Source: Candidatus Altimarinota bacterium (GTDB taxonomy: Bacteria; Patescibacteriota; Gracilibacteria; GCA-2401425; JAJOLG01). From it: 9,296 nucleotides of DNA. Below are positions 31-9,296 of the stretch, in pieces. The notes below the pieces were generated by a model. The model saw nothing but the letters and a program-made list of their open reading frames with translations, did no database searches and was not told the origin of the DNA. The stretch lies in NCBI GenBank assembly GCA_021129445.1, contig JAJOLG010000014.1:1-9296 (forward strand), read 5' to 3'. The stretch's first letter is position 1. Each line of letters begins with the position of its first letter. Made by a program: the position numbers and the translations under genes.

Positions 31-1041
31 ATGAATTTTTATAAAAAATATTTAGAGGAAATTTGAGAAAAAAAGTTTAGAATTCAGCAAGTTGATAAAG
101 CAATTTATCAGGATTTAGTTGAGGGCTTTGGAGAAATTACAACTTTATCAAAAACTTTGAGGGAAAAAATGTCAAAAGATTTGGATTTTTTTCGTTTAAA
201 AAAAATAAATGAAAAAGTGTCAAAAGACTGAACTCAAAAGGTTTTATTTGAAACAAAAGAGTGATTTAAGGTTGAATCTGTTTTGATGAGGCATGATAAT
301 TTTAGAAATACAGTTTGTGTTTCTTGTCAGGTTTGATGCGCTCAATGATGTACTTTTTGTGCAACTTGAAAACTTTGATTAAAAAGAAATTTAAGTTCCG
401 ATGAAATTATTGAGCAGGTTTTGTATTTTCAAAGAAAATTGAAAAAAACTGAGCCTTGACATAAGGTGACAAATATTGTTTATATGGGAATGTGAGAACC
501 ATTTCATAATTATGAAGAGGTTTTGGATTCGATAAAAAATATTCACGATCAGAAAAAAATGTGATTGGGGGCAAGGCATATTACAGTTTCAACTTCGTGA
601 GTTTTGCCTAAAATAAAGGAATTTATGAAGGAGGATTTGCAATTAAATTTGGCAATTTCGATTCATGCCGGAACTGATGAAACTCGTTCAAAAATTATGC
701 CAGTAAATAAAATTTATCCATTGCAAGATTTAATTGATACATTGGAGGAATATGTAAAAAATACTTGAAGAAGAATTTTTTATGAATATGTGATGTTAAA
801 ATGAGTAAACGATAAAGAATCTGAATTTGAAGCACTTTGAAAATTATTGGAGTGAAAATTGGCACATCTAAATATTATTCCGTATAATTCTGCACCAAAT
901 GATATTTATGAATGTTCATCAAGAAATACAATGTATAAATTTAAAGAAATTTTGAAAAAATATGATGTTCCTGCGACAATTCGTGTTTCACTTTGACAAG
1001 ATATTGATTGAGCTTGTGGGCAATTAGCTTGAAAAGAATAA
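31..1041 (+). CDS. rlmN: RlmN-family radical SAM RNA methyltransferase (UGA read as Gly)
   Basis: Read with UGA = Gly this is a 336-residue protein, close to the usual length for RlmN, which methylates C2 of an adenosine in 23S rRNA (and some tRNAs) using a [4Fe-4S] cluster and SAM. The cluster motif CAQGCTFC supplies C103, C107 and C110. C96, seven residues before the first cluster Cys, and C329 in GACGQL match the two catalytic cysteines of the family. MGMGEP (residues 152-157) and GQDIDGACGQL are further family hallmarks. Eighteen of 24 glycines are TGA, several at invariant positions, so the code assignment is Gly rather than Trp. The start is the ATG at 31, because an in-frame TAA lies just upstream at 22-24. 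No Shine-Dalgarno sequence and no promoter are visible in the 30 available bases. The stop is TAA. A 99-nt gap follows before the PKD-protein gene. Identification is firm; the substrate range is inferred from the family. Confidence 0.95.
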
Positions 1042-1140: not shown

Positions 1141-3765
1141 ATGCTTAAAAAAATTTTATTTTGAATATTTTTATCGCTTTTCATCTTTTCTGAAATGACT
1201 TTTGCATCAGCAAAAGTTGTTGTTCCTGCTTGACAAAATTTAAAAATTCATGCTGAGAGTGATATTTTGAATTGAGATTATTCTTGGGTTTTGATGTCAA
1301 GTGATTGATATATTTTACTTACTCAAAATTGACCAATTTTTAATACAAAATTTAAAAATGCTTGAAAATTTAATCTTAATTTGACAATTACAGACAAAAA
1401 AACTTGAAAAACAAAATTTACAAAAACTCAAATAATTGTCTGACAGCCAAATAAATTTTGGAACGATTTTAATGTGAAAGTTGCTTCTTTACCAGTAATT
1501 CACGATTGAAATGAAATTTATTTACCATGAAATGAATGAAAAATATTTTTTTCTTTTTGAAAATCAAAGTGAGTTAAGCAGATTTTTTTAGATAAAAATA
1601 TTGAAGTTGATGAAAAAACCGATAGATATGATAATGTTTCAGAAAATTGAGACAAAGATTGAAATCCGCAAAATGATAATGTTTTATGAGCTTGTAAAAG
1701 TTTTGAAAAATGTAAACAATTTAATGTTAGCCTTAAAAAACCAAAAAATGCAAATTCTGTAAAAATAAAATTTACATTTTTGTGATTTTCTTGAAAAAAA
1801 GAAGATAGAATTTTTACAATTTTATTTAATCACAAAGAGAAAAAGCCTGATTGATTTAAAATTAAAATAAATTCTGTTCCAAAAATTGATAAGAAAGATT
1901 GAGAAAAAATTATTTTTGTTCCATTTTGAATAAATGAGGCAATAATTGATTTATCTGCATCTTTGTGAGATTTTTTGGAATATGAGATAAATTGAAAAAA
2001 AATTTCTGAATGAGAATATTTTGTTGCAAAAAGGTGAGTTCAACATGAAAAAATTTTGAAAATTAAATTAAAATCTTGAAAAAAAATTAAAACGGATAAA
2101 ATAAAAATTATTTGGTGAAAAAAATGAGAACGCAAAGATATGGAGGTTTTTTCATCAACGAATCAAAATTTTGTTTGAAAAAAAATTTTTTTCTGAGTGA
2201 CGAATTTGGATACAGAAAAATATTTTGTTGAGTGGGATTTTGATTGAGATTGAAAAATTGATGTAAAAAATAAAGTTTACACAAATTTTAAATTTGAAAA
2301 AGAGTGAAAATTTGAGACAAAAATTTTTATAAAGGATAAAAAAACTGAAAAAATTTTTAAGGAATCAGTTTTAAAAATTGAAATTAGAAAACAAACAGAA
2401 ACAGAATTTTTTGTATCTGAACCAGTTGCAGATTTTGATTTTGAGATAAAATGACCAAATGTAAAATTTAAAAATAAATCAAAAGTTTCTGAAAAGTTAT
2501 TAAATAAAAGATTTAAGAGCTTTTGGAAATTTTGAGATTGAAATGTTTCGAATGAAAAAAATCCAGAATTTTTATATTCTGAAAAGTGAGAATATAAAGT
2601 TGAGTTAATTATTACTGATACTGCTTGAAATACAAGTTCTATTAAAAAAACAATTGAAATTACAGATTTAAATTTAGAAAAAAATATTTTAAAAAACAAA
2701 ACTTGAAATGTTTTGTGAAATGATGAAGATTTGATTAATAATGCGGAAAATACAGAAGGTACAGAAGAAAATATTGATGATGAAAATTGAAGTGTTGATT
2801 TTTTTGCAGATGAATGAAATAATGAAGTTTATGTTGATGAAAATAATAAAAATGAAATAAAAAACAATCTTGATAATTGAAATCCGTGAGAGGCTTTGCA
2901 AAAATTTTTGTTGTATTTAGCGATTTTAATTGCATCTATTTTGTGAATTGTGTGAATTTATTTGATAATTCAAAAAATCAAATATCCTGATATGGAATTT
3001 TCTGAAATTCTTGATGAGGAAAGGGAAAGAATTTTATCGTGGATTGAAGGAGAGGAATATAAACATCCAGAAATTAAGGAGGTTAAAAAAGATAAAATTG
3101 AGGAAAAAGTTGAAAATATTGAGCCTGAAATTAAGAAAATTGAAGAGAAAAAAACTGAAAAAGTTTCAGATGTGAAAAAAATTGAAGACAAAAAAATAGA
3201 GGAGAAAAAACCTGAAAGAGTTGAAAAAAAAGAAGTGAAAGTTGAAAAAAAACCTGAAAATCCTTTTGTAGATTTTTGAGAAAAAGATGAGGTAAAAAAA
3301 TCTGAAAAATCTGAAAATAAAATTGATAATCCATTTGCAAATTTTTGAGAAAAATCTGATAAAAATGTAAAAAAACAAGATGATAAAAAAACAAATGAAG
3401 TAAAAAATCCTTTTGTAGACTTTTGAAAAAAAGATGATTCAGAAAAAAAATCCAATGTTTTAAATGAAAAATTAAATAAAAAAAATTCGACAAATATTTG
3501 ACATAAACCGCAAAAAAATCCTTTTGAAAATTTTTGAATTGGTGAAAAAAATATCGTAAAACCGCAAAATAATTGACAAAAAACACAAAATAATAATTGA
3601 TGAAATATTGTAAAAACATCACAAAAATCTGAAAAAAAAGTTGTGAATAATTGATGAACAAATATTAAAAAATCAAATATTTCGCCACCACCTCCGCCAC
3701 CGCCGGCATCAGTTTTAAAAAATGATAAAAATGAAGATGACGATTTACCAGATTTCTTAAAATAG
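1141..3765 (+). CDS. Secreted, membrane-anchored PKD-domain protein with NPFxxFG-repeat cytoplasmic tail
   Basis: This 874-residue protein exists only with UGA = Gly; under the standard code it breaks into fragments. It starts with a signal peptide (residues 1-24, K-rich start, hydrophobic core, likely cleavage after FASA). The outer part contains PKD/Ig-like segments at about 30-100, 350-400 (EWDFDGDGKIDV) and 440-505 (WKFGDGN). An Asn/Glu/Asp-rich linker follows, then one transmembrane segment at about 585-612. The C-terminal about 260 residues are Lys/Glu-rich and probably disordered: four NPF-x-(D/N)-FG repeats, Gly/Asn/Gln stretches, seven consecutive prolines (849-855) and an acidic end EDDDLPDFLK. 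Predicted topology is a large extracellular domain, one membrane pass and a long intracellular tail. PKD domains are common in adhesion and carbohydrate-binding surface proteins; the role here is unknown. I do not recognise the whole protein as a named family. ATG 1141 is chosen because it begins the signal peptide 30 nt after GTAAAATA. The stop is TAG, and a terminator follows directly. Confidence 0.9.
3259..3537 (+). repeat. Four NPF-x-(D/N)-FG repeats in the PKD-protein tail
   Basis: Near-identical heptapeptide units NPFVDFG, NPFANFG, NPFVDFG and NPFENFG are encoded at 3259-3279, 3328-3348, 3406-3426 and 3517-3537 (protein residues 707, 730, 756 and 793 onward). They are separated by 16, 19 and 30 charged residues. 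In all four the final Gly is a TGA codon. Conservation of the short motif inside diverged spacers suggests a repeated docking peptide rather than a structural repeat; that is inference. Confidence 0.85.
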
Positions 3766-6807: not shown

Positions 6808-7491
6808 TTAATAAATATTTTTTTCATTTCTTGAAATATCTGGATTATAAATTTCATAAAATAATTTAATTATTTCATTTGTTGAAATTTGCTTTGCTTG
6901 TATTCATAATCAGGATAATCACTCTGTAATTGTATTAATTCTCGGTTTTATTCTTTTTTTCAATTTTTCAAATCTTTTCAGTCTAATTCTAATGTCAGAA
7001 GCAGACTCCTTTTTTCATCCTCAAAAAACATCTATTAAGAAATCCAAAAATCAAGTTTTTTTTGTTGAAATTCATCAGACTGGTACAATTACATAAAATT
7101 GCTTATCCATAATATTCGCATATTCAACAAGTTTTTTAATGTAAGCGGTGTATTCATAAGTTTGATTTTGCAAAAGTTGATTTTCTTGATTTTCTGCAAT
7201 TTTATTTATTGATTCAATATAATTATCAATATCAATTTTTTTTGATCTGATGTAAATTTGAATTGGAAAATCTAATAAATTTAAAAATCACTGATAACCA
7301 GAAATAATTGATTTTTGTTCTTCTTCAGATTTTAAATTGAAATTTATCGTTGAACATTTTAAAATTGCTCTAACTCATCAATTTTTCGTTGTAATTAAAT
7401 CATCATTAATCTCTCAGAATTCCAAAAAATTTTGAGTTGTTGCGACTAAATTTTTTCTTCCTGCTCGAACTGATTCTTTTTTATTTTCCAT
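6808..7491 (-). CDS. TraC-domain protein (VirB4/TraE N-terminal-domain-like, no ATPase)
   Basis: The 227-residue protein directly follows a PrgI-like gene. Its sequence resembles the N-terminal TraC-like domain of conjugation VirB4-type proteins: an early strand region with GGVRAILKCSTINFNLKS (55-72), then FLNLLDFPIQIYIRSKKIDID, a middle helix, KQFYVIVPV (115-123), and a C-terminal part RLKRFEKL...GLGIQAKQISTNEIIKLFYEIYNP. No Walker A or B motif is present and the protein ends where the ATPase domain would begin. In many CPR genomes PrgI and TraC-domain genes lie next to a separate VirB4-type ATPase gene; here no ATPase gene follows. The start is ATG 7491, 3 nt after the PrgI stop; the alternative of a PrgI fusion is excluded by TAA. 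The likely site of action is the inner face of the membrane with PrgI; this is inferred from gene context. Confidence 0.75.
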
Positions 7492-7494
7492 ATT

Positions 7495-8010
7495 TTATCA
7501 AAATCTTTGTAATAATTCTTCTTTTTCTTCAATATTAAGTTCATATTTTTCATTTGAATTAAAAATATTTTTTTCAGCATTTCAAAAAATTTCATTTTTC
7601 ATTTCATCAAAATCATTTTTTTTATCTGCTTGATTTTTTATTTCCAAATTCATTTTTTTATGAGTTTTTTTATCAGGTTGTACATAATTCAAAACATCAA
7701 AATATTGTCATCAAACCAGTCAATTATTGAAAAATCTTTTCTGTGGAATGAATATTTTTGAGATTAAAAGTGCTACCCATCTGTGAAATTCAAGGTGATT
7801 GATTTTTAAAAATGCAGATGCAACAAATAATCCTCAAACTACAAAATTTATAGTTCCCCAAACCGCCGGAACATATCCAGCTGTAAACATTGCTTGAAAA
7901 ATTGCATAACAAATCACTCATCAGATTGACAAAATAATCAATTGCCTCATTGTTAGAAAAGGCAAAATTCTATCTTCAAGCTCGGTATTTGCAGGAATTT
8001 TAAATCTCAT
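7495..8010 (-). CDS. PrgI-family membrane protein (type IV secretion/conjugation component)
   Basis: A 171-residue protein starting MRFKIPANTELEDRILPFLTMRQL, an N-terminus characteristic of PrgI-family proteins of Gram-positive and CPR conjugation-type systems. Two membrane segments lie at about 22-42 and 49-69, followed by FHRWVALLISKIFIPQKR, also typical. The C-terminal about 60 residues are charged and low in complexity (Asn, Lys, Glu) and probably form a cytoplasmic tail. PrgI-type proteins are small membrane partners of the VirB4-like ATPase. It is the first gene of the leftward cluster and has a promoter-like element about 29 nt upstream. There is no Shine-Dalgarno. The penultimate codon is TGA (Gly) followed directly by TAA, showing the two codons functioning side by side as sense and stop. 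Family call is fairly sure; whether the system makes a conjugation, DNA uptake or adhesion apparatus is unknown. Confidence 0.82.
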
Positions 8011-8031
8011 TTTTTATTTTTTTAATCAAAA

Positions 8032-8057
8032 TATTTTACATAAAAAAATATTTTTTT
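8032..8057 (-). promoter_or_regulatory. Putative promoter of the PrgI-TraC-ferredoxin-STAS cluster
   Basis: On the minus strand the palindrome AAAAAAATATTTTTTT (8057-8042) is followed by AT and GTAAAATA (8039-8032), which begins 29 nt before the PrgI ATG. This matches in order and spacing the elements before the PKD and PrsW genes. Like the PKD promoter it has a TGAAAAA sequence at the upstream end of the palindrome. Confidence 0.5.
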
Positions 8058-8110
8058 CACTATTAAAAGGTTTATTTTTTGTGAAAATGTTTTATTTTTA
8101 TGTTTTTTTA

Positions 8111-8139
8111 TTGACATTAAATAAAATTTAATTTATTAT
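8111..8139 (+). promoter_or_regulatory. Sigma70-type promoter-like sequence
   Basis: TTGACA (8111-8116) and TATTAT (8134-8139) are separated by exactly 17 nt, a consensus -35 with a one-mismatch -10. It points toward the lipoprotein gene, about 330 nt away, so any transcript would have a long leader. A second TTGACT (8164-8169) with TATAAT (8184-8189) has a short 14-nt spacer and is weaker. In such AT-rich DNA chance matches are likely. Confidence 0.35.
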
Positions 8140-8269
8140 TATAAAAATGTTTTAAAAAAAGTCTTGACTTTTTAAAAAATTTTTATAATAATATCCTTCC
8201 TTTTTTAAAGCAAAATCTTTTTGACTTTAATTTAGGAAAAGAAAATTCAAATAATTGGTTATTTTATTT

Positions 8270-8288
8270 AACTTAAAAATGTTAAGTT
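8270..8288 (+). repeat. 7-bp inverted repeat (small hairpin)
   Basis: AACTTAA (8270-8276) and TTAAGTT (8282-8288) can pair around a 5-nt loop, followed by TTTATATAATTTT. It could be a weak hairpin in a long leader transcript. AT-only pairing apart from one C:G pair makes it unstable, and no function is assigned. Confidence 0.35.
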
Positions 8289-8320
8289 TTATATAATTTT
8301 CTCCGCTCTGTAGTTTTTAT

Positions 8321-8374
8321 ATTAAAGAGATTGTTGAAAAATTTTTTATAAGATTTTTTTGCTGTCTCTTTAAT
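8321..8374. repeat. 10-bp inverted repeat with 34-nt spacer upstream of the lipoprotein promoter
   Basis: ATTAAAGAGA (8321-8330) and its exact complement TCTCTTTAAT (8365-8374) flank 34 nt. The right arm ends 15 nt before the TATAAT at 8390. It could be a pair of binding sites for a regulator, or a hairpin if transcribed from an upstream promoter. Confidence 0.45.
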
Positions 8375-8389
8375 TATATGACTGCAGGG

Positions 8390-8395
8390 TATAAT
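8390..8395 (+). promoter_or_regulatory. Putative -10 box for the lipoprotein gene
   Basis: A perfect TATAAT preceded by GCAGGG, with T-rich tracts upstream (8341-8375) and no clear -35. This resembles Campylobacterota sigma70 promoters, which often rely on the -10 and periodic T-tracts. Transcription would start at about 8402, giving a leader of about 67 nt. Confidence 0.5.
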
Positions 8396-8422
8396 TTTAA
8401 AGGGCTGGTTTTAGCTTAATGT

Positions 8423-8440
8423 GACAATTGAAAAATTGTC
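8423..8440 (+). repeat. 7-bp GAAA-loop hairpin in the lipoprotein leader
   Basis: GACAATT (8423-8429), loop GAAA, AATTGTC (8434-8440), followed by TTTT. It ends 16 nt before the Shine-Dalgarno sequence. With two C:G pairs and a GNRA-type loop it could fold in the mRNA; it may stabilise the 5' end or attenuate weakly. Confidence 0.45.
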
Positions 8441-8456
8441 TTTTGAATAAAGAAAT

Positions 8457-8463
8457 AAGGAGG
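8457..8463 (+). promoter_or_regulatory. Strong Shine-Dalgarno site of the lipoprotein gene
   Basis: AAGGAGG lies 5 nt before the ATG at 8469 and fixes this start. None of the seven UGA = Gly genes in the window has such a site, so this is part of the evidence for a different origin of the region. Confidence 0.88.
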
Positions 8464-8468
8464 AAGTT

Positions 8469-9296
8469 ATGAAAACTTCATTTATTAAAAAAGTTAGTTT
8501 TAGTATGTTAGTTGCTACTGTTGTAGTTGGTTTTACAGGTTGTGGCGGAGGAGGATCAAGCTCTCCTGAGATTTCACCATCAGTAAATAATAAAGAAATT
8601 ACCGTAGTTGATGGATACATATTAAACGCATCTGTAAAAGATGCACATGGACAAACAGCAGTAAAAAGCTATAGTAAACCGGGGACTTATATTTTTTCAG
8701 AAAATATAAGTTATCCAGTAACTGCAACTGGTGGTATTATTGATTTAAACAACAATGGGGTTGTTGATAGTACTGATGTTATTTTTGATCAAAATATGAC
8801 AGCATCTTCTGGTCTTGTCATATCTCCGATTACAACTTTTGAATCAAAAGGTGGTAACTTGGAGGTTTTAGCTCAGAAAACAGGCTTAACGGTTAATGAG
8901 TTGAAATTGGATTATTTGGCAACAAATAATCCAGAAGTTGCAAAAATAGCAAATCTTCTTTATTTTATAAATAAAGAGAATAAAGTAGTTGCAACTAATG
9001 TTGCTTTTGATAACTATCAAGGAACAGAAAGTGTAAACAGTGCTTTACAAAATTTTTCTGTTACAGGGGTGTTGTCAAATGAAGCAGCGAATGCTGCCAT
9101 ACAAGACCTTTCATTATCAAACGAGACTAATGCTTCAAAAATTGAAGAATTAGTTATTGATAATAAGGGGCTTGTAACAGTAGATGAAGCAAGTACTAGT
9201 GGAGCTGGATCAGGAGACACTGGATTAGTTTATACTATTTTTGACCCTATAAACGAATCAGAAATGGATTTATCATCTGAAAATTTAACAGCAATA
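8469..9296 (+). CDS. Surface lipoprotein, 3' end outside window; standard-code gene style
   Basis: The first 276 residues of a longer protein. The start has a lipoprotein signal peptide: MKTSFIKK, a hydrophobic stretch, then lipobox FTGC with C25 as the lipidated residue, followed by a Gly/Ser linker. An EF-hand-like calcium loop DLNNNGVVDSTD (92-103) sits in a YPVTATGG...SGLVISPITTF context that recurs in surface lipoproteins of Campylobacterota and other marine bacteria (from memory, not searched). The rest is a Ser/Thr/Asn-rich secreted region with no recognised domain. It contains 23 Gly codons, all GGN, and no in-frame TGA, unlike the genes to the left. It also has a strong Shine-Dalgarno site and richer codon variety. 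It reads correctly under either code. It is probably either acquired from a standard-code bacterium or brought in by contig chimerism. Function beyond a cell-surface or periplasmic-facing anchor is unknown. Confidence 0.85.
   Translation, partial: MKTSFIKKVSFSMLVATVVVGFTGCGGGGSSSPEISPSVNNKEITVVDGYILNASVKDAHGQTAVKSYSKPGTYIFSENISYPVTATGGIIDLNNNGVVDSTDVIFDQNMTASSGLVISPITTFESKGGNLEVLAQKTGLTVNELKLDYLATNNPEVAKIANLLYFINKENKVVATNVAFDNYQGTESVNSALQNFSVTGVLSNEAANAAIQDLSLSNETNASKIEELVIDNKGLVTVDEASTSGAGSGDTGLVYTIFDPINESEMDLSSENLTAI

Follow-up and report, generated by a model that had tools for sequence, protein, structure and literature searches.

Organization of the contig

The window analysed here is an entire contig (C31, 9,296 bp), one of 77 in a draft genome that totals 672,893 bp and is rated as 94.8% complete and 0.54% contaminated. 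Open reading frames (ORFs) of the draft genome were called under translation table 25, and codons were then counted in each ORF. About 33 kb of the genome lay outside this reading, namely the eleven small contigs C67-C77, which are N-masked, and the parts of C1 and C2 that lie past 20 kb; the remainder is referred to below as the readable genome. The features of the contig that bear on its origin are as follows.

31-1041, plus strand: rlmN (Pfam Radical_SAM and RlmN_N), native, code 25
6808-7491, minus strand: native code-25 ORF of 227 aa with no Pfam match, located next to prgI in the relatives that were compared
7495-8010, minus strand: PrgI-family protein gene, native, code 25 (Pfam PrgI, 4.8e-8; 8 of 11 glycines TGA)
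8011-8200: native-like intergenic DNA, 9% GC (figure for 8011-8193), with similar stretches in other native contigs
8111-8139, plus strand: near-consensus promoter-like TTGACA-17-TATTAT, from a promoter scan
8134-8193: AT-rich hairpin of 25 bp overlapping the promoter-like site, from a hairpin search
8200-8390: interval within which native DNA gives way to foreign DNA, with a changepoint in composition near 8360
8390-8395, plus strand: TATAAT, the probable -10 box of the foreign gene
8423-8440, plus strand: stem-loop GACAATT-GAAA-AATTGTC in the leader
8469-9296, plus strand: 5' part of a Campylobacterota-type lipoprotein gene (276 codons, no stop), cut by the contig end at 9296

Homologues of the PrgI-family protein were found in 48 of 59 other relatives searched. 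In nearly every one of the 17 relatives compared, whether recoded or not, the PrgI-like gene lies next to the 227-aa ORF; the pair is therefore an old conserved module, while the remaining neighbours vary. Synteny upstream of prgI is too variable among the relatives to predict the native neighbour. The plus-strand promoter at 8111-8139 may point at the former native right-hand neighbour. The left part also encodes an 874-aa PKD-domain protein (1141-3765). It starts with a signal peptide, has a membrane helix late in the sequence and bears a charged tail of NPFVDFGEK-like repeats; TGA encodes 56 of its 59 glycines.

Two coding styles within one contig

Two translational and compositional styles occur within this single contig. 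TGA accounts for 86.6% of the 12,427 glycine codons in native contigs of the genome and for 157 of the 175 glycines in the eight ORFs to the left of the lipoprotein gene. A recount agreed with the initial annotation of rlmN (18 of 24 glycines as TGA); the free use of TGA ascribed there to six other leftward genes was also found, although these genes number seven. In the lipoprotein ORF, from 8469 to the contig end, all 23 glycines are encoded by GGN and none by TGA, again as first counted. The nominal chance of this outcome at the native TGA share of 0.866 is about 9e-21, glycines within one gene not being fully independent, and is lower still than the 10^-14 originally claimed. A TGA share below 10% was observed in 11 of the 370 ORFs of the draft genome with at least 15 glycines. 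Ten of these 11 lie on contigs C21, C60, C62, C64 or C66, and the eleventh is the lipoprotein ORF. No other TGA-free ORF with at least seven glycines was present in native contigs; of the roughly 480 native-contig ORFs with six or more glycines, one of 82 aa with six glycines is likewise without TGA. The lipoprotein ORF is also set apart by its non-glycine codons, for which its score is 1.9 SD below the native gene mean, with AGT, ATA and AAC raised.

A search for prfB (TIGR00020), in which 10 of 14 controls were positive, gave no match in the readable genome, about 33 kb in masked contigs and the C1 and C2 ends being unread. Such an absence is expected for code 25 from the literature. The left part of the contig is from a code-25 organism that reads UGA as glycine, as its TGA-rich glycines and the failure to find prfB indicate. 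No tRNA with a UCA anticodon was among the 26 tRNAs found in this incomplete and partly masked genome, and such a tRNA may lie in the unread sequence. Two genes for CCA-anticodon tRNAs were observed (L034, 12830-12904; L038, 1944-2019) in this genome, in which UGA is the main glycine codon.

Initiation signals differ in the same manner. The sequence AGGAGG is located at 8458-8463 on the plus strand, 5 nt ahead of the lipoprotein ATG at 8469. GGAGG was found upstream of none of 468 native genes and AGGAG upstream of one of 468, in keeping with the earlier statement that a Shine-Dalgarno site is confined to the lipoprotein gene. The 3' end of the 16S rRNA retains CACCTCC, which contains the anti-Shine-Dalgarno sequence CCTCC. 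The AGGAGG site is thus foreign in style.

The switch had initially been placed at 8011. Instead, the segment from 8011 to 8193, with 9% GC, resembles native intergenic DNA, and GC climbs thereafter to 30% over 8360-8468 and to 33% over the lipoprotein ORF, compared with 18% in native noncoding DNA. Third-order Markov log-likelihoods were compared for three model pairs; two of them put the changepoint at 8360 and the remaining one at 8502. The junction is placed between about 8200 and 8390 because of the rise in GC, the Markov changepoint, and the TATAAT, leader and Shine-Dalgarno site, which fit the foreign gene. An Rfam search gave no match at the leader.

The lipoprotein gene and its relatives

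The lipoprotein begins with a signal sequence and the lipobox FTGCGGGGSS, followed by a domain that is common to lipoproteins of Nitratiruptor plasmids. A tblastn search of 72,556 plasmids (7.3 Gb) yielded a single matching record, a Nitratiruptor plasmid, and two further Nitratiruptor plasmids bear relatives of the matched protein. In pairwise BLASTP comparisons with plasmid lipoproteins of Nitratiruptor sp. YY09-18 and YY08-26, E values of 8e-5 and 2e-8 were obtained at about 30% identity. The TATVV/FTGCGGGGSS N-terminus is common to the lipoprotein and these relatives, and the domain after the linker is also homologous. The affinity to Campylobacterota suggested in the initial annotation is therefore supported, Nitratiruptor plasmid lipoproteins being the best relatives found.

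Among 378 other genomes of the host phylum, no convincing homologue of the lipoprotein was found; native and widespread TGA-free homologues, which the initial annotation had named as an argument against both transfer and chimera, are thus not apparent there. Four weak matches from these genomes, with E between 2e-4 and 9e-3 and mostly involving the signal region or short pieces, were not accepted as homologues. Campylobacterota origin of the foreign part is likely, judging from few distant relatives, because of the Nitratiruptor homology and the lack of a convincing homologue in the host phylum. Scans of genome contigs with the protein and with an alignment (A1) gave no confirmed relative, and a scan of viral contigs with the protein gave no confirmed match. 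A second alignment (A2) produced a single match in viral contigs, limited to the signal region. Pfam, NCBIfam and PDB sequences contained no meaningful match to the lipoprotein, and a plasmid DNA search with 8230-9296 returned only short, AT-rich chance matches. A single-sequence structure model of the lipoprotein was discarded (pLDDT 33).

The Nitratiruptor hypothetical proteins WP_199201783.1 and WP_201338762.1 share with the lipoprotein a signal peptide, the FTGCGGGGSS lipobox, a Ser-rich linker and a DGY-L-A...PG-Y-F...D-N domain, and the leaders of both genes also carry TATAAT. In the window protein, however, the linker is much shorter and the C-terminal half is not confidently alignable with theirs, and its leader has AGGAGG where the Nitratiruptor leaders have AAGGAAG. 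On the Nitratiruptor plasmids NZ_AP023064 and NZ_AP023066, the lipoprotein relatives lie beside peptidylprolyl isomerase and prepilin-type genes, and a type II secretion gene set is present on the plasmids.

Origin of the foreign segment

Five contigs of the bin, C21 (12.6 kb), C60, C62, C64 and C66, together about 26 kb, are standard-code throughout, with essentially no TGA as glycine. They carry genes for HtpG, PPK2, KdsA, a type I restriction system and Zorya-like proteins, and one of them encodes a T9SS sorting domain, typical of Bacteroidota. By their code usage and gene content these contigs are therefore classed as contaminants, at least one of them Bacteroidota-like. C21 encodes an extended cluster of vWA, Hsp70-like and membrane proteins that includes weak ZorA-like and ZorB-like matches; the cluster may represent a variant anti-phage system belonging to the contaminating organism.

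The contig is probably an assembly chimera, in which the join of code-25 and standard-code DNA is artificial. The first 8.2 kb would derive from a member of the Patescibacteria, of BD1-5/Gracilibacteria type, in which UGA is read as glycine. The source of the final 0.9 to 1.1 kb would be a bacterium with the standard code, probably one of the Campylobacterota. The foreign piece would bring a promoter, a leader and a Shine-Dalgarno site, together with the initial 276 codons of a gene for a secreted lipoprotein, and the assembler probably joined both pieces in very AT-rich intergenic DNA at about 8200-8390. In its own organism, the product would be an ordinary surface lipoprotein with a signal peptide, a lipid-anchored Cys, a Gly/Ser linker and a globular domain. 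A chimera is favoured because the foreign DNA is open at the contig end, with native DNA on its left only and its right side ending inside a gene, and because its continuation is absent from the readable bin, no 21-mer of 7900-9296 recurring in the readable rest of the genome. It is favoured further because no comparable gene, foreign and flanked by native DNA on both sides, was seen inside native contigs and because the bin is contaminated. Several observations count against it. Misassembly is rarer than mis-binning as an error of metagenome-assembled genomes (MAGs) (PMC8201837), the junction has no N run such as marks scaffold gaps elsewhere in the genome, and the contaminant contigs are Bacteroidota-like or unassigned and not Campylobacterota. 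Contig ends in the draft genome overlap by 55 nt, which suggests that a de Bruijn k of 55 was used in the assembly; a chimera at this k needs a shared 55-mer or wrong repeat resolution, and no shared repeat marking the join was found.

GGN codons still specify glycine in code 25, and a standard-code gene is thus readable there except that its TGA stops are read through. A recent horizontal transfer, in which the lipoprotein gene passed from a neighbour or host among the Campylobacterota into a code-25 Patescibacterium and kept the donor codons and ribosome-binding site, is accordingly the main rival, though we think it unlikely. The unbroken sequence without N and the retained anti-Shine-Dalgarno sequence of the 16S rRNA are in its favour, a variable insertion would likewise end a contig, code-11 genes are tolerated by code 25, and Gracilibacteria phages compatible with code 11 are reported (PMC10746230). 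However, apart from the 82-aa ORF, the lipoprotein gene would be the sole case of its kind among the native ORFs with at least six glycines, and, as it happens, this one runs off the end of its contig. The surroundings of the junction yielded no integrase, no IS end and no att-like repeat, and the donor-style promoter and leader would have come along with the gene. In a more specific proposal, the recipient is a code-25 Patescibacterium with a predatory or episymbiotic life, and the lipoprotein gene arrived recently from a Campylobacterota neighbour together with its promoter and Shine-Dalgarno site, readable unchanged; this is slightly more doubtful again. The initial annotation had offered both an acquisition from a Campylobacterota-like organism and a chimera; that affinity is supported, and a transferred lipoprotein gene with donor codons is possible, but the single mixed case, the open contig end and the contaminated bin lean towards the chimera.

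That a mobile element compatible with code 11, such as a prophage or plasmid, starts here with the lipoprotein gene as cargo is very improbable. The Nitratiruptor relatives are indeed plasmid-borne, and phages with such compatibility exist in Gracilibacteria; yet the lipoprotein has no phage homologue of note (a PHROG match at E 0.0039 covers the signal region only), and all Gracilibacteria prophages carried dense TGA (PMC10746230). The least credible reading is of a native gene that avoids TGA because GGN codons, or a strong Shine-Dalgarno site, are required for its product. Nothing beyond its presence on this contig speaks for it, and against it stand the singular behaviour of the gene, the lack of GGAGG at any of the 468 native genes and the result of the search in the phylum sample.

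Neither the gene type nor the mechanism is new, whether a chimera or a transfer is accepted. If the transfer were true, it would illustrate a one-way code compatibility, with standard-code genes entering a code-25 genome freely save for their TGA stops, and would give a hint at the host or prey. As a chimera, the contig is a warning, and the TGA share per gene is a sharp and cheap detector of contamination in code-25 draft genomes; here it picks out five contigs as contaminants and one as mixed, in a bin whose marker-based contamination is 0.54%.

The code-11-compatible Gracilibacteria phages (PMC10746230) resemble this contig in that TGA-free genes are linked to a code-25 host, and differ from it in that the contig is without a phage gene or phage homologue. 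A further parallel to the probable chimera is provided by the chimeric and mis-binned MAG contigs of the GUNC paper (PMC8201837): a foreign lineage is likewise joined within one contig, and separate foreign contigs occur in the same bin at low marker-based contamination. What sets this contig apart from those chimeras is that genetic-code usage itself reveals the switch.
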